Of a stretch of DNA of 64,000 nucleotides, positions 18,633 to 25,815 are shown one piece after another. The stretch lies in the NCBI RefSeq assembly GCF_900114215.1, contig NZ_FOSG01000013.1:62001-126000 (forward strand), in the 5' to 3' direction. A model generated the notes under the pieces. That model was not told the origin of the DNA. It saw only the letters and a program-made list of their open reading frames with translations, and did not search any database. Source of the stretch: Streptomyces mangrovi. GTDB lineage: Bacteria > Actinomycetota > Actinomycetes > Streptomycetales > Streptomycetaceae. Each line of letters starts with the position of its first letter. Position 1 is the first letter of the stretch. The position numbers and the translations under genes were made by a program.

Positions 18633-19529
18633 TCACCCCGCGGCGGGGCCGGTCGCGTAGAAGGCCACGGCCGCGGCCGCGGCGACGTTGAGGGAGTCGA
18701 CGCCCGCGCTCATGGGGATCCGCACGGTCACGTCGGCGGCCGCGACCGTGGACGGGCGCAGGCCGTCCCCCTCGGAGCCGAGGATCAGGGCGGTCCTGGG
18801 GTGCCGGCGGGCCGCGAACTCGCCGAGGCCGACCGCGTTCTCGTCCAGGGCGAGCGCCGCCGTGACGTACCCCGCCTCCCGCAGCACCCCGACGTCCCCG
18901 GGCCAGGACTCCAGCCTGGTCCACGGCACCTGGAGGACCGCGCCCATGGAGACCTTGACCGAACGCCGGTAGAGGGGGTCGGCGCAGTCCGGTGAGAGCA
19001 GGACCGCGTCCATGCCCAGCGCCGCCGCGCTGCGAAACAGGGCACCGACGTTGGTGTGGTCGTTCACGGCCTCCAGCACCGCCACCCGGCGCGCGTCGGC
19101 CAGCAGGTCCGCCGGGCTCGGAAGGGGCTTTCGGCACATCGAGGCCAGGGCCCCGCGGTGCACGTGGTAGCCCGTCACCCGCTCGGCCACCTCCGGGCCG
19201 ACGCTGTAGACGGGCGCCCGGGCCGCGGCGACCACATCGCACATCGCCTCGGCCCACTTGGGCGTCAGCAGCATCGACCGCATCTCGTAACCGGCCGCGA
19301 GGGCCCGCCGGATGACCTTCTCGCCCTCGGCGATGAACAGGCCCTCCGCCGGTTCGCGTACGCGCCGCAGCCGGACGTCGGTCAGGCCGGTGTAGTCGCC
19401 CAGGCGCGGATCGCCGGGGTCCTCGACGGTGACCGGGCCCCGGACGTCCCCGCTCCCGCCTTCCGCCACGGCGGCGTCACCGTCCGCCGCCCCGGGCCTC
19501 CCGGCGCCTTCGGCCCCCCGCTCCGTCAC
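18633..19529 (-). CDS. TrmH/SpoU-family RNA 2'-O-methyltransferase
   Basis: 298 residues. The N-terminal 40 are Gly/Ala/Asp-rich and likely disordered. A substrate-binding domain (GLFIAEGEKVIRRAL) and the SPOUT catalytic domain follow, with motif 1 NDHTNVGALFRSAAALG, motif 2 LILGSEGDGL and motif 3 IPMSAGVDSLNVAAAAAV. It should methylate a ribose in tRNA or rRNA using S-adenosylmethionine. Its GTG start overlaps the stop of the upstream cobA-like gene (GTGA), so the two are coupled. Confidence 0.92.
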   Translation of the reverse strand: MTERGAEGAGRPGAADGDAAVAEGGSGDVRGPVTVEDPGDPRLGDYTGLTDVRLRRVREPAEGLFIAEGEKVIRRALAAGYEMRSMLLTPKWAEAMCDVVAAARAPVYSVGPEVAERVTGYHVHRGALASMCRKPLPSPADLLADARRVAVLEAVNDHTNVGALFRSAAALGMDAVLLSPDCADPLYRRSVKVSMGAVLQVPWTRLESWPGDVGVLREAGYVTAALALDENAVGLGEFAARRHPRTALILGSEGDGLRPSTVAAADVTVRIPMSAGVDSLNVAAAAAVAFYATGPAAG

Positions 19530-20758
19530 CGGCCGGTCCCGGCCCGGTTCACACCGACCACCTCGCCGACGACGATCACCGCGGGCGGACGTACGCCCTC
19601 CTCCTCGACCGTGCGCGCCGCGGTCGCCAGGGTGGCGTCCACCCGGCGCTGGCCGGCCATGGTGCCCTCCTGGACCACGGCGACGGGCGTGTCCGGGGCC
19701 CGCCCGTGCTCGATGAGCGCCTCGGCGATGGCGCCGATGCGCTCCACCGCCATCAGCATCACCAGGGTGCCGCGCAGTTTCGCCAGGGCCGCCCAGTCCA
19801 CCAGCGAACGCGGGTCGCCGGGTGCGACATGGCCGCTGACGACGGTGAACTCATGGGCCACCCCGCGGTGTGTGACCGGGATGCCCGCGGCGCCGGGCAC
19901 GCTGACGGAGCTGGAGATGCCGGGCACCACGGTGACCGGGATCCCGGCCCCGGCCAGCGCCTGCGCCTCCTCCATGCCGCGGCCGAAGACATAGGGGTCG
20001 CCGCCCTTGAGGCGCACGACGAACCTCCCGGCCCTGGCGTGCTCCACGAGGGCCGCGTTGATGGCCTCCTGGGCCATCGCCCGGCCGTAGGGGATCTTGG
20101 CCGCATCGATCACCTCGACGTGCGGCGGCAGTTCGTCCAGCAGGTCGCGCGGGCCGAGCCGGTCGGCGATCACCACGTCCGCCTCGGCCAGCAGCCGGCG
20201 GCCGCGCACCGTGATCAGGTCCGGGTCGCCCGGGCCTCCACCGACCAGGGCGACACCGGCCCTGCGGGCCCGGTGCCGGGGGGCGGTCAGGGTGCCGTCT
20301 CGCAGGCCCTCGACCACAGCGTCGCGCACGGCGGCCGAGCGGCGCGGATCGCGTCCGGTGAGGACCGCGACGGTGACGCCCTCGCTGCGTCCGGTGGCCG
20401 GGGTCCAGGCGGTGGCGGCGCCGGCGTCGTCGCTGCGGACGCACCACACCCGGCGCTCCTCGGCCTCGGCGGAGGCGGTCGCGTTGGCCCCGGCGTCGTC
20501 GGTGGCGACGACCGCGTACCAGGCGCCGTCCAGATCGCCCGGGCGGTAGGCGCGGCGCTCCCAGCGCAGCTCGCCCGCCTCGGCCATGGCCTCCACCGAG
20601 GGGGTGGCCGAGGGGGCGATCACCAGGACGTCGGCGCCCGCGGCCAGCAGTGCGGGCAGCCGCCGCTGGGCGACGGTCCCGCCGCCGAGGACGACCACAC
20701 GGCGCCCGGTCAGACGCAGGCCCACGGGGTAGGCGGGGTGCGCGGAGTGCTCGGACAT
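19526..20758 (-). CDS. cobA: Uroporphyrinogen-III C-methyltransferase fused to precorrin-2 dehydrogenase domain
   Basis: 410 residues. The N-terminal part (about 12-160) has a Rossmann motif VVVLGGGTVAQRRLPALLAAG like the dehydrogenase domain of CysG; the C-terminal part (about 168-400) is the methyltransferase: VALVGGGPGDPDLITVRG, then FVVRLKGGDPYVFGRG and ISSSVSVPGAAGIPVTHRG. It methylates uroporphyrinogen III to precorrin-2, and may oxidise it to sirohydrochlorin, feeding siroheme and cobalamin. It has a good ribosome binding site (GAGGAG), and bluB-cobT and cobL lie upstream on the same strand. Confidence 0.93.
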   Translation of the reverse strand: MSEHSAHPAYPVGLRLTGRRVVVLGGGTVAQRRLPALLAAGADVLVIAPSATPSVEAMAEAGELRWERRAYRPGDLDGAWYAVVATDDAGANATASAEAEERRVWCVRSDDAGAATAWTPATGRSEGVTVAVLTGRDPRRSAAVRDAVVEGLRDGTLTAPRHRARRAGVALVGGGPGDPDLITVRGRRLLAEADVVIADRLGPRDLLDELPPHVEVIDAAKIPYGRAMAQEAINAALVEHARAGRFVVRLKGGDPYVFGRGMEEAQALAGAGIPVTVVPGISSSVSVPGAAGIPVTHRGVAHEFTVVSGHVAPGDPRSLVDWAALAKLRGTLVMLMAVERIGAIAEALIEHGRAPDTPVAVVQEGTMAGQRRVDATLATAARTVEEEGVRPPAVIVVGEVVGVNRAGTGR

Positions 20759-20878
20759 GGCGGTGCGGCTCCTCAAAGGATCGCGGGCCGCTGCGACGGT
20801 GGAGCGGCGAAGACGGGACTGGCTGCAAAGGGCAGCGGGTGCGGGCAGCGTACGACGCGGCGGCCCGGCCCCGCTGTG

Positions 20879-20944: not shown

Positions 20945-23900
20945 TCAGTTCTTCTCGGTGACGCCCGCCGAGTCGAAGGTGGCGACCTCGTGCATGGCCC
21001 GGGCCGCGCTCTGCACCACCGGCAGGGCCAGCAGGGCGCCCGTCCCCTCTCCGAGCCTCAGGTCGAGGTCGATCAGGGGACGCAGGCCCAGCTTGGTCAG
21101 TGCCGCGACATGGCCGGGCTCCGCGCTGCGGTGACCCGCGATGCAGGCCGCCAGCGCCTCGGGCGCGATGGCCCGCGCGACCAGGGCCGCCGCCCCCGCG
21201 CTCACCCCGTCGAGGACGACGGGGGTGCGCAGCGAGGCGCCGCCGAGGATCAGCCCGGTCAGCGCGGCGTGCTCCAGTCCGCCGACCGCCGCCAGGACGC
21301 CGAGGGGGTCGGCCGCGTCGGGCCGGTGCAACTCCAGGGCGCGGCGCACCACCTCGACCTTGCGGGCGTGCATCTCGTCGCTGACACCGGTGCCGCGACC
21401 GGTGACCTCGGCCGGGTCGGCGCCGGTGAAGACCGCGATCAGCGCTGCGGAGGCGGTGGTGTTGGCGATGCCCATCTCACCGGTCAGCAGCGCCTTGTTG
21501 CCCGCCGCCACCAGATCGCGGGCGGTCTCGATGCCCACCTCGACCGCGCGCAGCACCTCCTCGCGGGTGAGCGCGGGCCCGGCGGTGAAGTCCGCCGTGC
21601 CGGGCCGCACCTTGCGCGGCAGCAGACCGGGCGCGGACGGCAGGTCGGCCGCCACGCCCACATCCACCACACAGACCTCGGCGCCCACCTGGTTCGCGAA
21701 GGCGTTGCAGACCGCGCCGCCGGCCAGGAAGTTGGCGACCATCTGCGCCGTGACCTCCTGCGGCCAGGCGGTGACGCCCTGGGCGTGCACCCCGTGGTCC
21801 CCGGCGAAGACGGCGACGGCCGCGGGCTCGGGGACCGGCGGGGGGCACTGCCGGGCCAGACCGCTGAGCTGCGCGGAGATGATCTCCAGCATGCCGAGCG
21901 CGCCGGACGGCTTGGTCATCCGCTTCTGGCGCTCCCACGCCTCGCCGAGCGCCTTGGCGTCCAGCGGGCGGATACCCGCCAGGGTCTCGGTGAGCAGGTC
22001 GTGCGGCTCCTCCGCACCGGGCAGGACCCGGCGGCCGTAGGACTCCTCGTGGACGACCCAGGACAGCGGGCGGCGCCTGGACCAGCCCGCCTGCACCAGC
22101 TCGGGCTCGTCCGGGAAGGCGTCCACGTACCCGATGCACAGGTAGGCGACGACCTCCAGGTGCTCGGGCAGGCCGAGGACCCGGACCATCTCGCGCTCGT
22201 CGAAGAAGCTGACCCAGCCCACGCCCAGGCCCTCCGCGCGGGCCGCGAGCCAGAGGTTCTCCACCGCCAGGGCCGAGGAGTAGGGCGCCATCTTCGGCTG
22301 GGTGTGGCGGCCGAGGGTGTGGCGGCCGCCACGGGTGGGGTCGGCGGTGACGACGATGTTGACCGGGGTGTCGAGGATCGCCTCGACCTTCAGCTCCTTG
22401 AACTGCTTGGCACGGGCCCGGGGCAGCGACCGGGCGTACGCGTCGCGCTGGCGCATGGCCAGCTCGTGCATCGTCCTGCGGGTCTCCTCGGAGCGGATGA
22501 GGACGAAGTCCCACGGCTGGGAGTGGCCGACGCTGGGAGCGGTGTGGGCCGCCTCCAGGACGCGCAGCAGCACGTCGTCGGGGATCGGGTCGGAGCGGAA
22601 ACCGTTGCGGATGTCCCGCCTCTCGCGCATGAGGCGGTGCAGCGTCTCGCGTTCGACCTCGTCGTAGCCCGGGGCGGCGGGGGCGGGGGCGGGGGCGGCA
22701 CCGGTGGCCTCGGTGGCCTCATCGGTGGCAACCGCTCCGGCGGTGCCGGCCGCGTCCGGCGTCCCGGTCCCGGGCTCCTGCTCGGCGACGGGTACGGCCG
22801 GCCCACCGTCGGCGGGCGGCTGTGCGTCGTCCTGCCGGAGGGTCTCGGCGGTGACCGCCACGGCCTCCATCACCTGCGGTCCGGCGCCGGGCACCGCGGC
22901 CACGGCGAGTTGCTGCTCGGGGGCCGGCGCGGGGGCCTCGTCCGCCGGCGCCGGAGCGGGCTCCTGAGAGGGCTGCGGCTCGGCCTCGGAGGAGACGGGC
23001 TCGGAGGGGACGGGCTCGGAGGGCACGGGCTCGGAGGGGACGGGCTCGGAGGGGACGGGCTCGGAGGGTGCCTGGACAGACGCGGGTTCGGCCGCCGTGG
23101 GTTCGACAGTGGCGGGTTCGGGGGCGGGCGCCTCGGCAGCCTCCGCGGAAGCGGCCTCCGCGGAGGTGGGTCCGGCAGGGACGGGTTCGGCGGGAGTCGC
23201 CTCGGCCGAAACGCTCACCGGGGTCTCCGCCGCGACGGGCTCCCCGGCGTCCCCCGGGCCTTCCGGGGTCTTCGGCGCCTCGGACACGGCCTCCGGCTCG
23301 GCGGCGGGCCGGGGCTGCTCCGGTTCCGCGCCCTGTGCCTCGTGGACGGTCCGCGGACCGGGTTCGGCCACGGCGGGTTCGGGCGCTGCGGGTTCGGCGG
23401 ACTCGGCGACAGGGGCCGCAGCCACGGACGGCTCGACCGCCTCGGGCACGGACTCCGACTCCGGGGCAGAACCAGGGACAGGAGCGGAAACTTCGTCCGC
23501 CGGCGCCGGAACGGGCTCCTGGAAAGGCTGCGGCTCGGCCTCCTCCGCCTCGGGCGCGGGCTCCGCCTCGGGCGAGGACTCCTGCTCCGGGGCGGAAGCG
23601 GGGGCCTGGCCCTTTGCGGTCGGCGCCTCACCGGTCTCCGGGACGGGAGGCATCGCGGCGAGGTCCGGGCCGGGCAGCGGCTCGGCCGGCCATCCGGCCG
23701 CCGGCTGCACGGGAGCGGGCCCGGGTTCCGCCGCCGGGGCCGGCGCCGGAGGCTGCGGCGCCCAGGCGCCGGGCTGCACCGGGTCGGACGGAAGCGTGCC
23801 GGGCTGCGCGGCGGGAGCGGGCGCGGCCGCCTCAGGTGCGACGGTCTCGGGTGCCTCCGGAGAGGGAGCGGCCTGCGCCGCGGGCTCCTCGTGGGCGACG

Positions 23901-24373
23901 TCGAAGTACTCGGGCCCCGTGGTCGGCGGTCCCGGCTGCCGTACGGGCACGCCCTGCGGGGGCGTGGGCGCCGGAGCCGCCGGGGTGCTGCTGCGGTCGG
24001 CGAGCGTGCGCACCACGCCGGACTGCTCGGGCACGGGCGGCCCCAGGTGCGGCGGCCGGGGAGGCGTCGCGGCGGTGTGGGGCACCTGCCCGTGGGCCGT
24101 CTGCGCGGGCGGCACGGGGCGCTGCCCGTAGCCGTCCGACTCGCGCGGGCCGGGCACGGAGGCGGGCGCGGACGCCTGAGGCTGCGCGGACGCCGCCGCC
24201 TCGCCCCATCCGTGGGAGCCGGGCAGCAGCAGATCGTCCTCGTAGCCCGACGCCACACCTTCGACCGGGCCCGCGAAGGTGTACGTGCCGGGTGCCGGTG
24301 TACCCGGCTGCTCCGGCTGTCCGCCTGCGTTCTCCGGCTGCCCCTCGCCCGGGACCCGGCCGGTGTCAGTCAT
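20945..24373 (-). CDS. cobT: BluB-CobT fusion with very long Pro/Glu/Ala-rich N-terminus
   Basis: 1142 residues in three parts. Residues 1-565 are low-complexity Pro/Ala/Glu/Ser sequence with repeats. About 568-790 is a nitroreductase-fold BluB-like domain (MRERRDIRNGF, APSVGHSQPWDFVLI, GWVSFFDERE), which makes 5,6-dimethylbenzimidazole from FMNH2. About 790-1142 is CobT (SGALGMLEIISAQL, FAGDHGVHAQGVTAWP, TGEMGIANTTASAAL, and RLGEGTGALLALP with the catalytic Glu), which activates that base with nicotinate mononucleotide. The fusion couples two consecutive steps of lower-ligand assembly. The ATG overlaps the stop of a seven-codon mini-ORF (including its stop). The role of the extension is unknown. 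Confidence 0.92.
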   Translation of the reverse strand: MTDTGRVPGEGQPENAGGQPEQPGTPAPGTYTFAGPVEGVASGYEDDLLLPGSHGWGEAAASAQPQASAPASVPGPRESDGYGQRPVPPAQTAHGQVPHTAATPPRPPHLGPPVPEQSGVVRTLADRSSTPAAPAPTPPQGVPVRQPGPPTTGPEYFDVAHEEPAAQAAPSPEAPETVAPEAAAPAPAAQPGTLPSDPVQPGAWAPQPPAPAPAAEPGPAPVQPAAGWPAEPLPGPDLAAMPPVPETGEAPTAKGQAPASAPEQESSPEAEPAPEAEEAEPQPFQEPVPAPADEVSAPVPGSAPESESVPEAVEPSVAAAPVAESAEPAAPEPAVAEPGPRTVHEAQGAEPEQPRPAAEPEAVSEAPKTPEGPGDAGEPVAAETPVSVSAEATPAEPVPAGPTSAEAASAEAAEAPAPEPATVEPTAAEPASVQAPSEPVPSEPVPSEPVPSEPVPSEPVSSEAEPQPSQEPAPAPADEAPAPAPEQQLAVAAVPGAGPQVMEAVAVTAETLRQDDAQPPADGGPAVPVAEQEPGTGTPDAAGTAGAVATDEATEATGAAPAPAPAAPGYDEVERETLHRLMRERRDIRNGFRSDPIPDDVLLRVLEAAHTAPSVGHSQPWDFVLIRSEETRRTMHELAMRQRDAYARSLPRARAKQFKELKVEAILDTPVNIVVTADPTRGGRHTLGRHTQPKMAPYSSALAVENLWLAARAEGLGVGWVSFFDEREMVRVLGLPEHLEVVAYLCIGYVDAFPDEPELVQAGWSRRRPLSWVVHEESYGRRVLPGAEEPHDLLTETLAGIRPLDAKALGEAWERQKRMTKPSGALGMLEIISAQLSGLARQCPPPVPEPAAVAVFAGDHGVHAQGVTAWPQEVTAQMVANFLAGGAVCNAFANQVGAEVCVVDVGVAADLPSAPGLLPRKVRPGTADFTAGPALTREEVLRAVEVGIETARDLVAAGNKALLTGEMGIANTTASAALIAVFTGADPAEVTGRGTGVSDEMHARKVEVVRRALELHRPDAADPLGVLAAVGGLEHAALTGLILGGASLRTPVVLDGVSAGAAALVARAIAPEALAACIAGHRSAEPGHVAALTKLGLRPLIDLDLRLGEGTGALLALPVVQSAARAMHEVATFDSAGVTEKN
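22994..23068. repeat. Five 15-bp tandem repeats in the bluB-cobT extension
   Basis: Five copies of GACGGGCTCGGAGGG (one with C for the first G) encode consecutive PSEPV units on the minus strand. They are in frame, so the array can vary in length without disrupting the enzyme domains. Confidence 0.9.
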
Positions 24374-24390
24374 GCGTACCCCTCGCCCAT
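24370..24390 (-). CDS. Six-residue mini-ORF coupled to bluB-cobT
   Basis: ATG-GGC-GAG-GGG-TAC-GCA-TGA (peptide MGEGYA). It has a better ribosome binding site (GGAAGGAG, seven bases before its ATG) than the enzyme gene, and its TGA overlaps the enzyme ATG as ATGA. Translational coupling through a minimal leader ORF is the likely use. It could also be chance, since GAGGGG alone would serve the main gene. Confidence 0.35.
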   Translation of the reverse strand: MGEGYA

Positions 24391-24576: not shown

Positions 24577-25815
24577 TCACATCCGGCTGCCGGACAGCAG
24601 GAAGACGACCGCGCGTTCGCGTTCCGTCCACTCCCGGGTGTCCAGTTCCAGGGACTGGAGCAGGGTGCACTCCACGGCGTATCCGCCGTCCGCCAGCACC
24701 CGTCCGACGGCCTCGGCCTCGTCGCGGGTGGAGGCGTGTGTGACGATCCTCTCGGGTCTGCGGTCGGCGCAGGCGGCGACCGTGCGCACCCCTCCCCCGC
24801 CGACGCGCACCACGTCGGGCTCGGGCAGCGCCTCCAGCGCCAGGGGTGCGATGCCGTGCACGACCTGGAGCTGGACGCCGAAGTGCCGTGCGGCGGCGGA
24901 CATCCGCGCGCAGGCGGCCGCGTCGCGCTCGACCGCGAGGACCGCGGCGCCGAAGCGGGCGGCCTCCACGGCGACGGCTCCGCTGCCCGCGCCGATGTCC
25001 CACAGCAGGTCGCCGGGCCTGGGGCCGAGCCGGGCGAGCTGGGCGGCGCGCAGTTGCGCGGAGTCCGCGGTCCCCGCCGCGGCCGCCCGGGCGTCCTGTC
25101 CGGTGTACTCGGCGGCCGGCCGGGCCCAGCCCCGCACGGCGGGCGGGTAGTTCGGATCACGGCCGGCCAGCCATCCGCCCCGGCCGGCCGCACCGGGCCC
25201 GGCCGCGGCCGCCGAACCGCCCACCACGATCACGACGTTGGGGTCGCGCCAGACATGGTCGGCGACCTTGTCGGAGGTCAGTACGGTGACCCGCTCGCGG
25301 TCGGTGCCCAGGGCCTCGCAGATGAAGAAGGTGCGGTGCACCCCCTCCAGCAGCAGGGCCAGTTCGGCGGGCCCGGCGCCGGGCGAGGTGAGGACGGCGA
25401 CCTTGGTGTGGGCGCGGCAGACGTTGACGGCGCGGCGCAGGGTGCGGCCGTGGGCGACGACGATCCGGGCGTCGTCCCAGGGCATCCCCGCGCGGGCGAA
25501 GGCCGCGGCGACGGACGAGACGGCGGGTACGACCTCGACCTCCAGGCCGTACTCGGGTGCGCGCAGGGTGCGGACGACGCCGAAGAAGCCCGGGTCGCCG
25601 TCGGCGAGGACCACCGCGGTGCCGCGGTGCCCGGCGATACGGCGGGCGGCCGGCGCCACACCGCCCAGCCGGATGCGCTCGGCCCCGGGCGGGACCTCGG
25701 GGAGGGCGAGATGGTGGGCGGCGCCGGCGACGAGGGTGGCGGCTCCGAGAGCGGCGCGGGCGGCCTCGGTCAGCGGCGAGCCGTCCCACCCGATCACGGT
25801 GACACGGTCGGCCAT
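24577..25815 (-). CDS. cobL: Precorrin-6Y C5,15-methyltransferase (decarboxylating), CbiE-CbiT type
   Basis: 412 residues. The N-terminal tetrapyrrole-methylase half (about 1-200, MADRVTVIGWDGSPLTEAA, with a Gly-Asp-Pro-Gly segment ADGDPGFFG) corresponds to CbiE; the C-terminal half (about 240-412, LLWDIGAGSGAVAVEAARFG) is a class I methyltransferase, CbiT. Together they methylate C5 and C15 of the corrin precursor and decarboxylate it. A GGAGAGAG ribosome binding site precedes the ATG. It is the first of three cobalamin genes on this strand, but no other cob/cbi genes are in the window. Confidence 0.94.
   Translation of the reverse strand: MADRVTVIGWDGSPLTEAARAALGAATLVAGAAHHLALPEVPPGAERIRLGGVAPAARRIAGHRGTAVVLADGDPGFFGVVRTLRAPEYGLEVEVVPAVSSVAAAFARAGMPWDDARIVVAHGRTLRRAVNVCRAHTKVAVLTSPGAGPAELALLLEGVHRTFFICEALGTDRERVTVLTSDKVADHVWRDPNVVIVVGGSAAAAGPGAAGRGGWLAGRDPNYPPAVRGWARPAAEYTGQDARAAAAGTADSAQLRAAQLARLGPRPGDLLWDIGAGSGAVAVEAARFGAAVLAVERDAAACARMSAAARHFGVQLQVVHGIAPLALEALPEPDVVRVGGGGVRTVAACADRRPERIVTHASTRDEAEAVGRVLADGGYAVECTLLQSLELDTREWTERERAVVFLLSGSRM

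Follow-up and report, generated by a model that had tools for sequence, protein, structure and literature searches.

A motif-bearing, predicted disordered N-terminal extension of the Streptomyces BluB-CobT fusion protein that may tether the enzyme

Introduction

Why does an enzyme of vitamin B12 synthesis carry 565 residues ahead of its catalytic domains? The question is raised by a gene in a 64,000-nucleotide stretch of Streptomyces mangrovi DNA (contig NZ_FOSG01000013.1, positions 62,001 to 126,000 of the forward strand; hereafter the window), which encodes a fusion of BluB and CobT with an N-terminal extension on the minus strand (20945..24373; ATG at 24373, stop codon ending at 20945, 1142 amino acids). 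Both enzyme domains are full-length profile matches above the curated cut-offs and lie, as the original prediction from the sequence alone had it, in the C-terminal half. TIGR02476 (5,6-dimethylbenzimidazole synthase BluB; 297.5 bits, cut-off 150, profile positions 1-205 of 205) covers residues 570-775 (22049..22666, minus strand), and TIGR03160 (CobT, nicotinate mononucleotide:5,6-dimethylbenzimidazole phosphoribosyltransferase; 417.9 bits, cut-off 319.3, profile positions 2-334 of 334) covers residues 805-1138 (20960..21961, minus strand). The extension had been drawn at 22650-24373; its existence is borne out, but that 3' boundary falls 17 bases inside the BluB match starting at 22666, and the domain matches place the extension at 22679..24373 (minus strand; residues 1-565, to about 569).

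A comparable fusion, BluB/CobT2 of Propionibacterium freudenreichii, joins the same two enzymes in the same order, is active in vitro and channels dimethylbenzimidazole, but as described in the parts of the source consulted it has 626 amino acids, no N-terminal extension and a 34-residue Pro-rich interdomain spacer (PMC4657239). One sentence of that 2015 paper assigns to Streptomyces griseus a BluB/CobT fusion with an extra protein of unknown function at its N terminus, which is very likely the same extension, although it is regarded there as a fused protein and its disorder, motifs and distribution are not described in the parts consulted (PMC4657239). Among the papers listed in searches of the open-licence PMC literature, we recognized no other treatment of the Streptomyces CobT extension. 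Here, we found that the N-terminal part of the extension bears short conserved motifs, which went unmentioned in the original prediction and are a more telling feature than the repeats that it described.

Results

From a scan of named genomes with the enzyme part, we kept the best 80 of 587 relatives; one is titled Streptosporangium nondiastaticum and the other 79 Streptomyces. In 67 of these 80, the frame continues upstream to an MTDTG-type start and adds 386-1594 residues (median 672) to the enzyme. Compared across Streptomyces fusions, as had been suggested, the extension is therefore retained and not strain specific, with a length that ranges from 386 to 1594 residues. Of the other 13 loci, 10 stop at a contig end, 2 are frame-broken, and 1 (L018) lacks the extension motifs in the 2.4 kb available. 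None of the 80 was seen to start directly at BluB, the gene start lying outside view in 12 of them; the contrary observation named in the original prediction was made outside the family, where by frame reading 7 of 20 fusions have no extra residues or at most about 35.

Motifs were counted in the window protein and in the 67 loci whose start motif is in frame, 68 extensions in all, and expectations come from shuffles of the residues of each extension. Motif B (TYTF...YEDDLLLPGSHGW; residues 30-56, 24206..24286), an acidic run followed by LLLMPGxQGxW, is found in 68 of 68 extensions against an expected 0.06, and motif C (RPPHLGPPVPEQSGVVRTLADR; residues 106-127, 23993..24058), with the pattern [RL][STP]L[AS][DE]R, in 68 of 68 against 0.013. 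Motif C mostly reads VRSLADRG following RRPLHxGPPxPD, with VRPLSDRG, VRTLSDRG or VRSLSERG in five of the 68, and the motif order is fixed, C always lying downstream of B. Motif A (MTDTGRVPGEGQPENAG; residues 1-17, 24323..24373) is present by construction, since the start motif defines the set, and is followed through to GEGxP[EGAS] in 59 of 68 (expected 2.44). Motif D (RQPGPPTTGPEYFD; residues 145-158, 23900..23941), of the GPPTTGPEY type, occurs in 48 of 68 (expected 4.42), and two further motifs, E and F, occur in 32 and 23; all the coordinates given are on the minus strand. In the 62 of the 67 relatives recognized by a narrower motif C pattern, the median length is 159 residues (116-378) from the start through C and 472 residues (270-1422) between C and BluB. 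The two frame-broken relatives also contain motifs, A and C in L039 and D in L051, each out of frame with the enzyme.

The motifs and the rest of the extension change at different rates. In 14 close non-overlapping pairs, the pooled ratio of nonsynonymous to synonymous rates (dN/dS) was lowest in the enzyme (0.04), higher in motifs A-C (0.18) and highest in the remainder of the extension (0.52), figures to be read with the caveat that the motif regions were picked for conservation, which lowers their ratio, and that uncertain linker alignment raises the ratio of the linker. The nearest sequence, L001 (titled Streptomyces barkulensis), is 99% identical in the enzyme part; it differs from the window in 97 alignment columns, of which 93 are within the extension and none in motifs A-D. 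Synonymous divergence (pS) was 0.36 for motif B (67 sequences), 0.45 for motif C (61 sequences), 0.34 for BluB and 0.165 for motif A. Thus, the synonymous sites of B and C vary like those of BluB, indicating that constraint in these two motifs acts on the protein. The low pS of motif A is not unusual, since the first codons of the upstream cobL gene look about as conserved as those of the fusion gene (66 sequences).

Residues 1-565 are rich in proline (22.8%), alanine (21.6%) and glutamate (12.2%), have two lysines (0.4%) and no cysteine, and carry a net charge of -73, in agreement with the acidic, Pro/Ala/Glu-rich extension of 565 residues first described. Lysine and cysteine are nearly absent from relatives as well, making up 0.09% and 0.00% (one residue) of 47,250 extension residues, compared to 2.6% and 0.94% of the enzyme part. 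The PSEPV pentapeptides that had been pointed out form a tandem array of five units at residues 436-460 (22994..23068, minus strand; Tandem Repeats Finder 22981-23068, period 15), and at least four PSEPV were reached in 0 of 2000 shuffles of the extension's own residues; the L001 counterpart of this array reads mostly PSESA. The duplicated segment is likewise real, though its copies are imperfect: EPQPFQEPVPAPADEV, from residue 280 (23489..23536), and EPQPSQEPAPAPADEAPAP, from residue 465 (22925..22981), both on the minus strand, correspond to a duplication of 85 bases at 78% identity.

Searches of Pfam and NCBIfam gave no match to residues 1-565 at E up to 1. In an AlphaFold2 model of L011 (960 amino acids, the shortest extension of the set, 54 sequences), residues 1-390 nearly all have a predicted local distance difference test score (pLDDT) below 50, the first helix is at residues 392-404, and the enzyme is folded. 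The AlphaFold model of the window protein (37 sequences) is likewise low up to about residue 570, with a mean pLDDT of 52.8 and a lower overall quality. Both are single-chain models without interface scores, and they point to a disordered extension. An unrecognized folded domain was rejected on the absence of profile matches and of secondary structure in the two models.

Searching whole genomes, we found that the two main motifs lead back to the fusion gene. The motif B profile, with every candidate scored, recovered the fusion gene in 12 of 12 genomes at 2.1e-8 or better, and its runner-up in 10 of the 12 was a TYDDVLLLPG stretch with E of 0.28-0.48; in the eight of these 10 that were read, we take the stretch to be part of IMP dehydrogenase and the match to be due to chance. 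The motif C profile, scored on 150 of the 385-754 candidates in each genome, found the fusion gene in 11 of 12 genomes at E of 8e-9 or better, with the next best place at 0.013; it missed the gene of G031, where the best place lay elsewhere at 0.43. A tag shared with other proteins was rejected on these searches, which gave no convincing B or C match in other genes of the 12 genomes (for C, among 150 candidates each). No solved structure matched the motif B profile at E up to 1.

Within the wider family, all 249 drawn genomes gave some match to the enzyme part, and in at least five of them (G010, G038, G191, G205 and G218) the matches were of paralogue type only, the gene being missing or lost in assembly. 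Motifs B and C are present in six proteins of other genera of the family (L176-L179, L192 and L193). Protein lengths in other genera reach 2,306 and 2,423 amino acids (genus g2), 1,749 (g5) and 1,693 (g15), and in one g2 locus, L175 (of L175-L177), the open frame reaches 2,466 residues ahead of BluB. Short open frames at six further family loci were rejected as true cases of a missing extension after their flanks were read: five (L149, L151, L152, L191 and L194) show upstream extension motifs, of which one or more lie in a frame other than that of the enzyme, and L150 stops at a contig end. Frame breaks in the extension, in these five loci as well as in L039 and L051, occur in some cases within large contigs, and in such a GC-rich repeat they may be sequencing errors or real losses.

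Outside the family, 20 BluB-CobT fusions were fetched out of 296 genomes drawn from the class. Thirteen of them, all from family f17, have an extension with a different conserved motif, GL[LF]D[DG]LPE, which is present in 14 of 14 f17 loci tested (the fourteenth being L148) and is followed by N[VI][IV]P[FL]RG in 8 of 12 proteins. The f17 extensions have 206-524 residues (12 proteins; for L173 and L161 the count runs to a point slightly farther on). By frame reading, the other seven fusions (f12, two f13, f23, two f33 and f40) have no extension or one of at most about 35 residues; in L156, where no start could be assigned, the short or absent extension is a judgement. With 150 candidates scored per genome, the f17 motif profile hit the fusion in all seven fusion-bearing genomes searched (E of 5.3e-9 or better). 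In the seven f17 genomes searched that have a CobT unfused to BluB its best match was 0.034, and elsewhere it reached at best 0.0079 (G102). In seven f17 genomes (G264, G301, G331, G371, G389, G398 and G485), a CobT about 65-67% identical to that of the window gives a match beginning after BluB. In another family, loci L181-L186 have large open frames ahead of an unfused CobT; these were not taken for extensions, being apparently chance frames over a neighboring gene.

The neighbors of the fusion gene on the same strand are a CbiE/CbiT-type cobL upstream (24577-25815) and a cysG-type gene downstream (19526-20776); in Streptomyces coelicolor, cobT is SCO1554 and cysG is SCO1553 according to the portion of the source consulted (PMC4991794). 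At 24370-24390 on the minus strand lies a six-codon frame, MGEGYA*, whose TGA overlaps the ATG of the fusion gene (ATGA). This overlap is present in 58 of the 67 relatives with the extension (53 MGEGYA, 3 MGEGNA, 1 MGEGHA and 1 VGEGYA); among the other nine, the small frame runs into the gene in six and lies in the third frame in one, and the ATG is lost in two. The bases immediately upstream of the start are strongly conserved in relatives. At eight loci of other genera, the MGEGYA stretch is absent and most have a GGAAGGAG-like site directly before the start.

Second copies of the enzymes were also observed. The same genome has another CobT-like frame without BluB (L082, G000:C20:344955-345935; 39% identical over query residues 240-564), and frames resembling it turn up in many relatives. 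A second BluB-CobT-like stretch, L119 (G015:C1:2195606-2197315; 40% identical, with one internal TGA), lies beside the main copy of its genome.

Discussion

Short conserved motifs, a tolerant linker, the lack of structure of its own and the absence of a convincing copy elsewhere together suggest that the extension carries a tethered recruitment motif. We therefore propose, with a probability of roughly one half, that the extension is an anchor on a leash, whose N-terminal motifs recruit the enzyme to a partner through a flexible linker. The motifs, chiefly B (acidic-LLLMPGxQGxW) and C (VRSLADRG), would bind one or more partner proteins, and the long, acidic linker of Pro, Ala, Glu and Val, of which neither the length nor the precise sequence would matter much, would let BluB-CobT move yet stay near the partner. 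We infer that the motifs bind something and that this is another protein. As a guess, that partner would be one of the enzymes of late cobamide assembly that surround the membrane proteins CobS and CbiB; alpha-ribazole phosphate would then be made at its site of use and free dimethylbenzimidazole kept low.

These enzymes are natural candidates, since the parts consulted of two studies of Salmonella propose a membrane complex for nucleotide-loop assembly that includes CobT (PMC8092220) and report that a free intermediate antagonizes flavins (PMC10468695). The proposed complex contains CobT and gives a reason for keeping it close to CobS; unlike the arrangement suggested here, it is a proposal for another organism and, as far as the source was available, involves no disordered tether (PMC8092220).

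Several points weigh against the tether. The choice of a late-assembly partner rests on proposals for other organisms, and the extension is dispensable for catalysis in other lineages, since the Propionibacterium fusion works without it, according to the parts consulted (PMC4657239), and no extension is carried by 7 of the 20 fusions from other families. The specificity of motif C is lessened by the limit of 150 scored candidates per genome and by the missed gene in G031, and the contrast in dN/dS by the way in which the motif regions were chosen and the linker aligned.

The strongest competitor is a tolerated expansion or entropic bristle, in which a GC-rich repeat grew by slippage and was kept only for general effects such as solubility, the motifs being incidental or translational. 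We consider this possible but distinctly less probable than the tether. It would account for the wide range of lengths among the 67 relatives, the proteins of up to 2,423 amino acids in another genus, the tandem array that differs from that of the sister sequence L001, the linker dN/dS and the existence of extension-free lineages. However, it does not predict B and C in every extension and in fixed order, nor their low dN/dS, and the near-absence of Lys and Cys over so many residues is not expected from unconstrained drift. The two possibilities raised by the original prediction seem to apply to different parts of the extension: localization or tethering may fit the N-terminal part, where ubiquitous motifs in fixed order are what a tether predicts, while tolerated expansion fits the longer C-terminal part, which varies widely in length, differs in its tandem array even from L001 and is constrained in composition.

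Control in cis, with the motifs docking on the BluB-CobT dimer of their own protein to regulate its activity or its supply of flavin, appears unlikely. Consistent with it, the extension accompanies the BluB fusion, and the f17 motif was not found in the seven f17 genomes with unfused CobT (best 0.034). The motifs are, however, not confidently placed by either AlphaFold monomer, which is weak evidence, since monomers were modeled without interface scores.

A Family 2 encapsulin cargo domain, with a disordered N terminus that loads the enzyme into a shell, is very improbable. The likeness is one of architecture: Family 2B cargos bear disordered N-terminal domains, and such Pro/Ala/Gly-rich regions on enzymes are common in Streptomyces, according to the parts of the source consulted (PMC8346489). 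Moreover, a Family 2B shell scored above the cut-off in 30 of 30 Streptomycetaceae genomes tested. However, GPTGLGT, the cargo motif described for terpene cyclases of Family 2B, is absent here and occurs in 0 of 67 extensions, and the shell gene of the same genome does not adjoin the fusion gene, lying on contig C53 while the fusion gene is on C26. In addition, 14 extension-bearing f17 genomes were read (G362, extension-bearing by open frame alone, was left out), of which 8 have a Family 2B shell, 2 only fragments and 4 none, and the shell is also found in 3 of 9 genomes whose fusion is unextended or short (G299 and G329 unread) and in 3 of 3 with unfused CobT. These counts, made for Family 2B, suggest that shell and extension do not go together. 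The Family 2B encapsulin match in the same genome as the fusion gene of the window (G000:C53:241172-242447) looks broken, its two pieces overlapping but lying in different frames.

Conservation of the start region at the RNA or DNA level, through translation start or the overlapping leader frame, rather than at the protein level, is suggested by the pS of motif A, the conserved upstream bases and the six-codon frame, but is hardly credible as the explanation, given that the cobL start is comparably conserved, that B and C lie farther in and show normal synonymous variation, and that no Rfam family reached its gathering score within 14-34 kb.

For the tether, an architectural parallel is the noncatalytic region of RNase E, which, in the parts of the source consulted, is disordered, AEPV-rich in part, tandemly repeated and fast changing with short microdomains, and lies beside a conserved enzyme (PMC4435900). 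The extension shares disorder (as predicted) with biased composition and tandem repeats, as well as short conserved motifs in fast-changing sequence. The differences are that the RNase E region is C-terminal and has known partners, namely RhlB, enolase, PNPase and the membrane (PMC4435900); we claim no homology. By analogy, the extension may work like the RNase E microdomain scaffold without being a member of it.

A bolder view, which we hold to be doubtful, is that two actinobacterial families each turned the enzyme that makes and activates dimethylbenzimidazole into a disordered scaffold, with a different motif set, to organize a cobamide-assembly metabolon, in which B and C would dock late B12 enzymes. 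If true, this would bring an RNase E-like architecture into vitamin B12 synthesis, in proteins that reach about 2,400 residues in some genera. According to the parts consulted of its source, a single complex for the last steps of B12 assembly is still a proposal (PMC8092220), and conserved, gene-specific motifs of docking type give direct access to this question. Should the motifs bind nothing, the extension would still be a good example of bacterial linker growth, from 386 to 1594 residues across 67 Streptomyces loci; if the tether is true, a metabolic enzyme would join the bacterial proteins that are built like RNase E.

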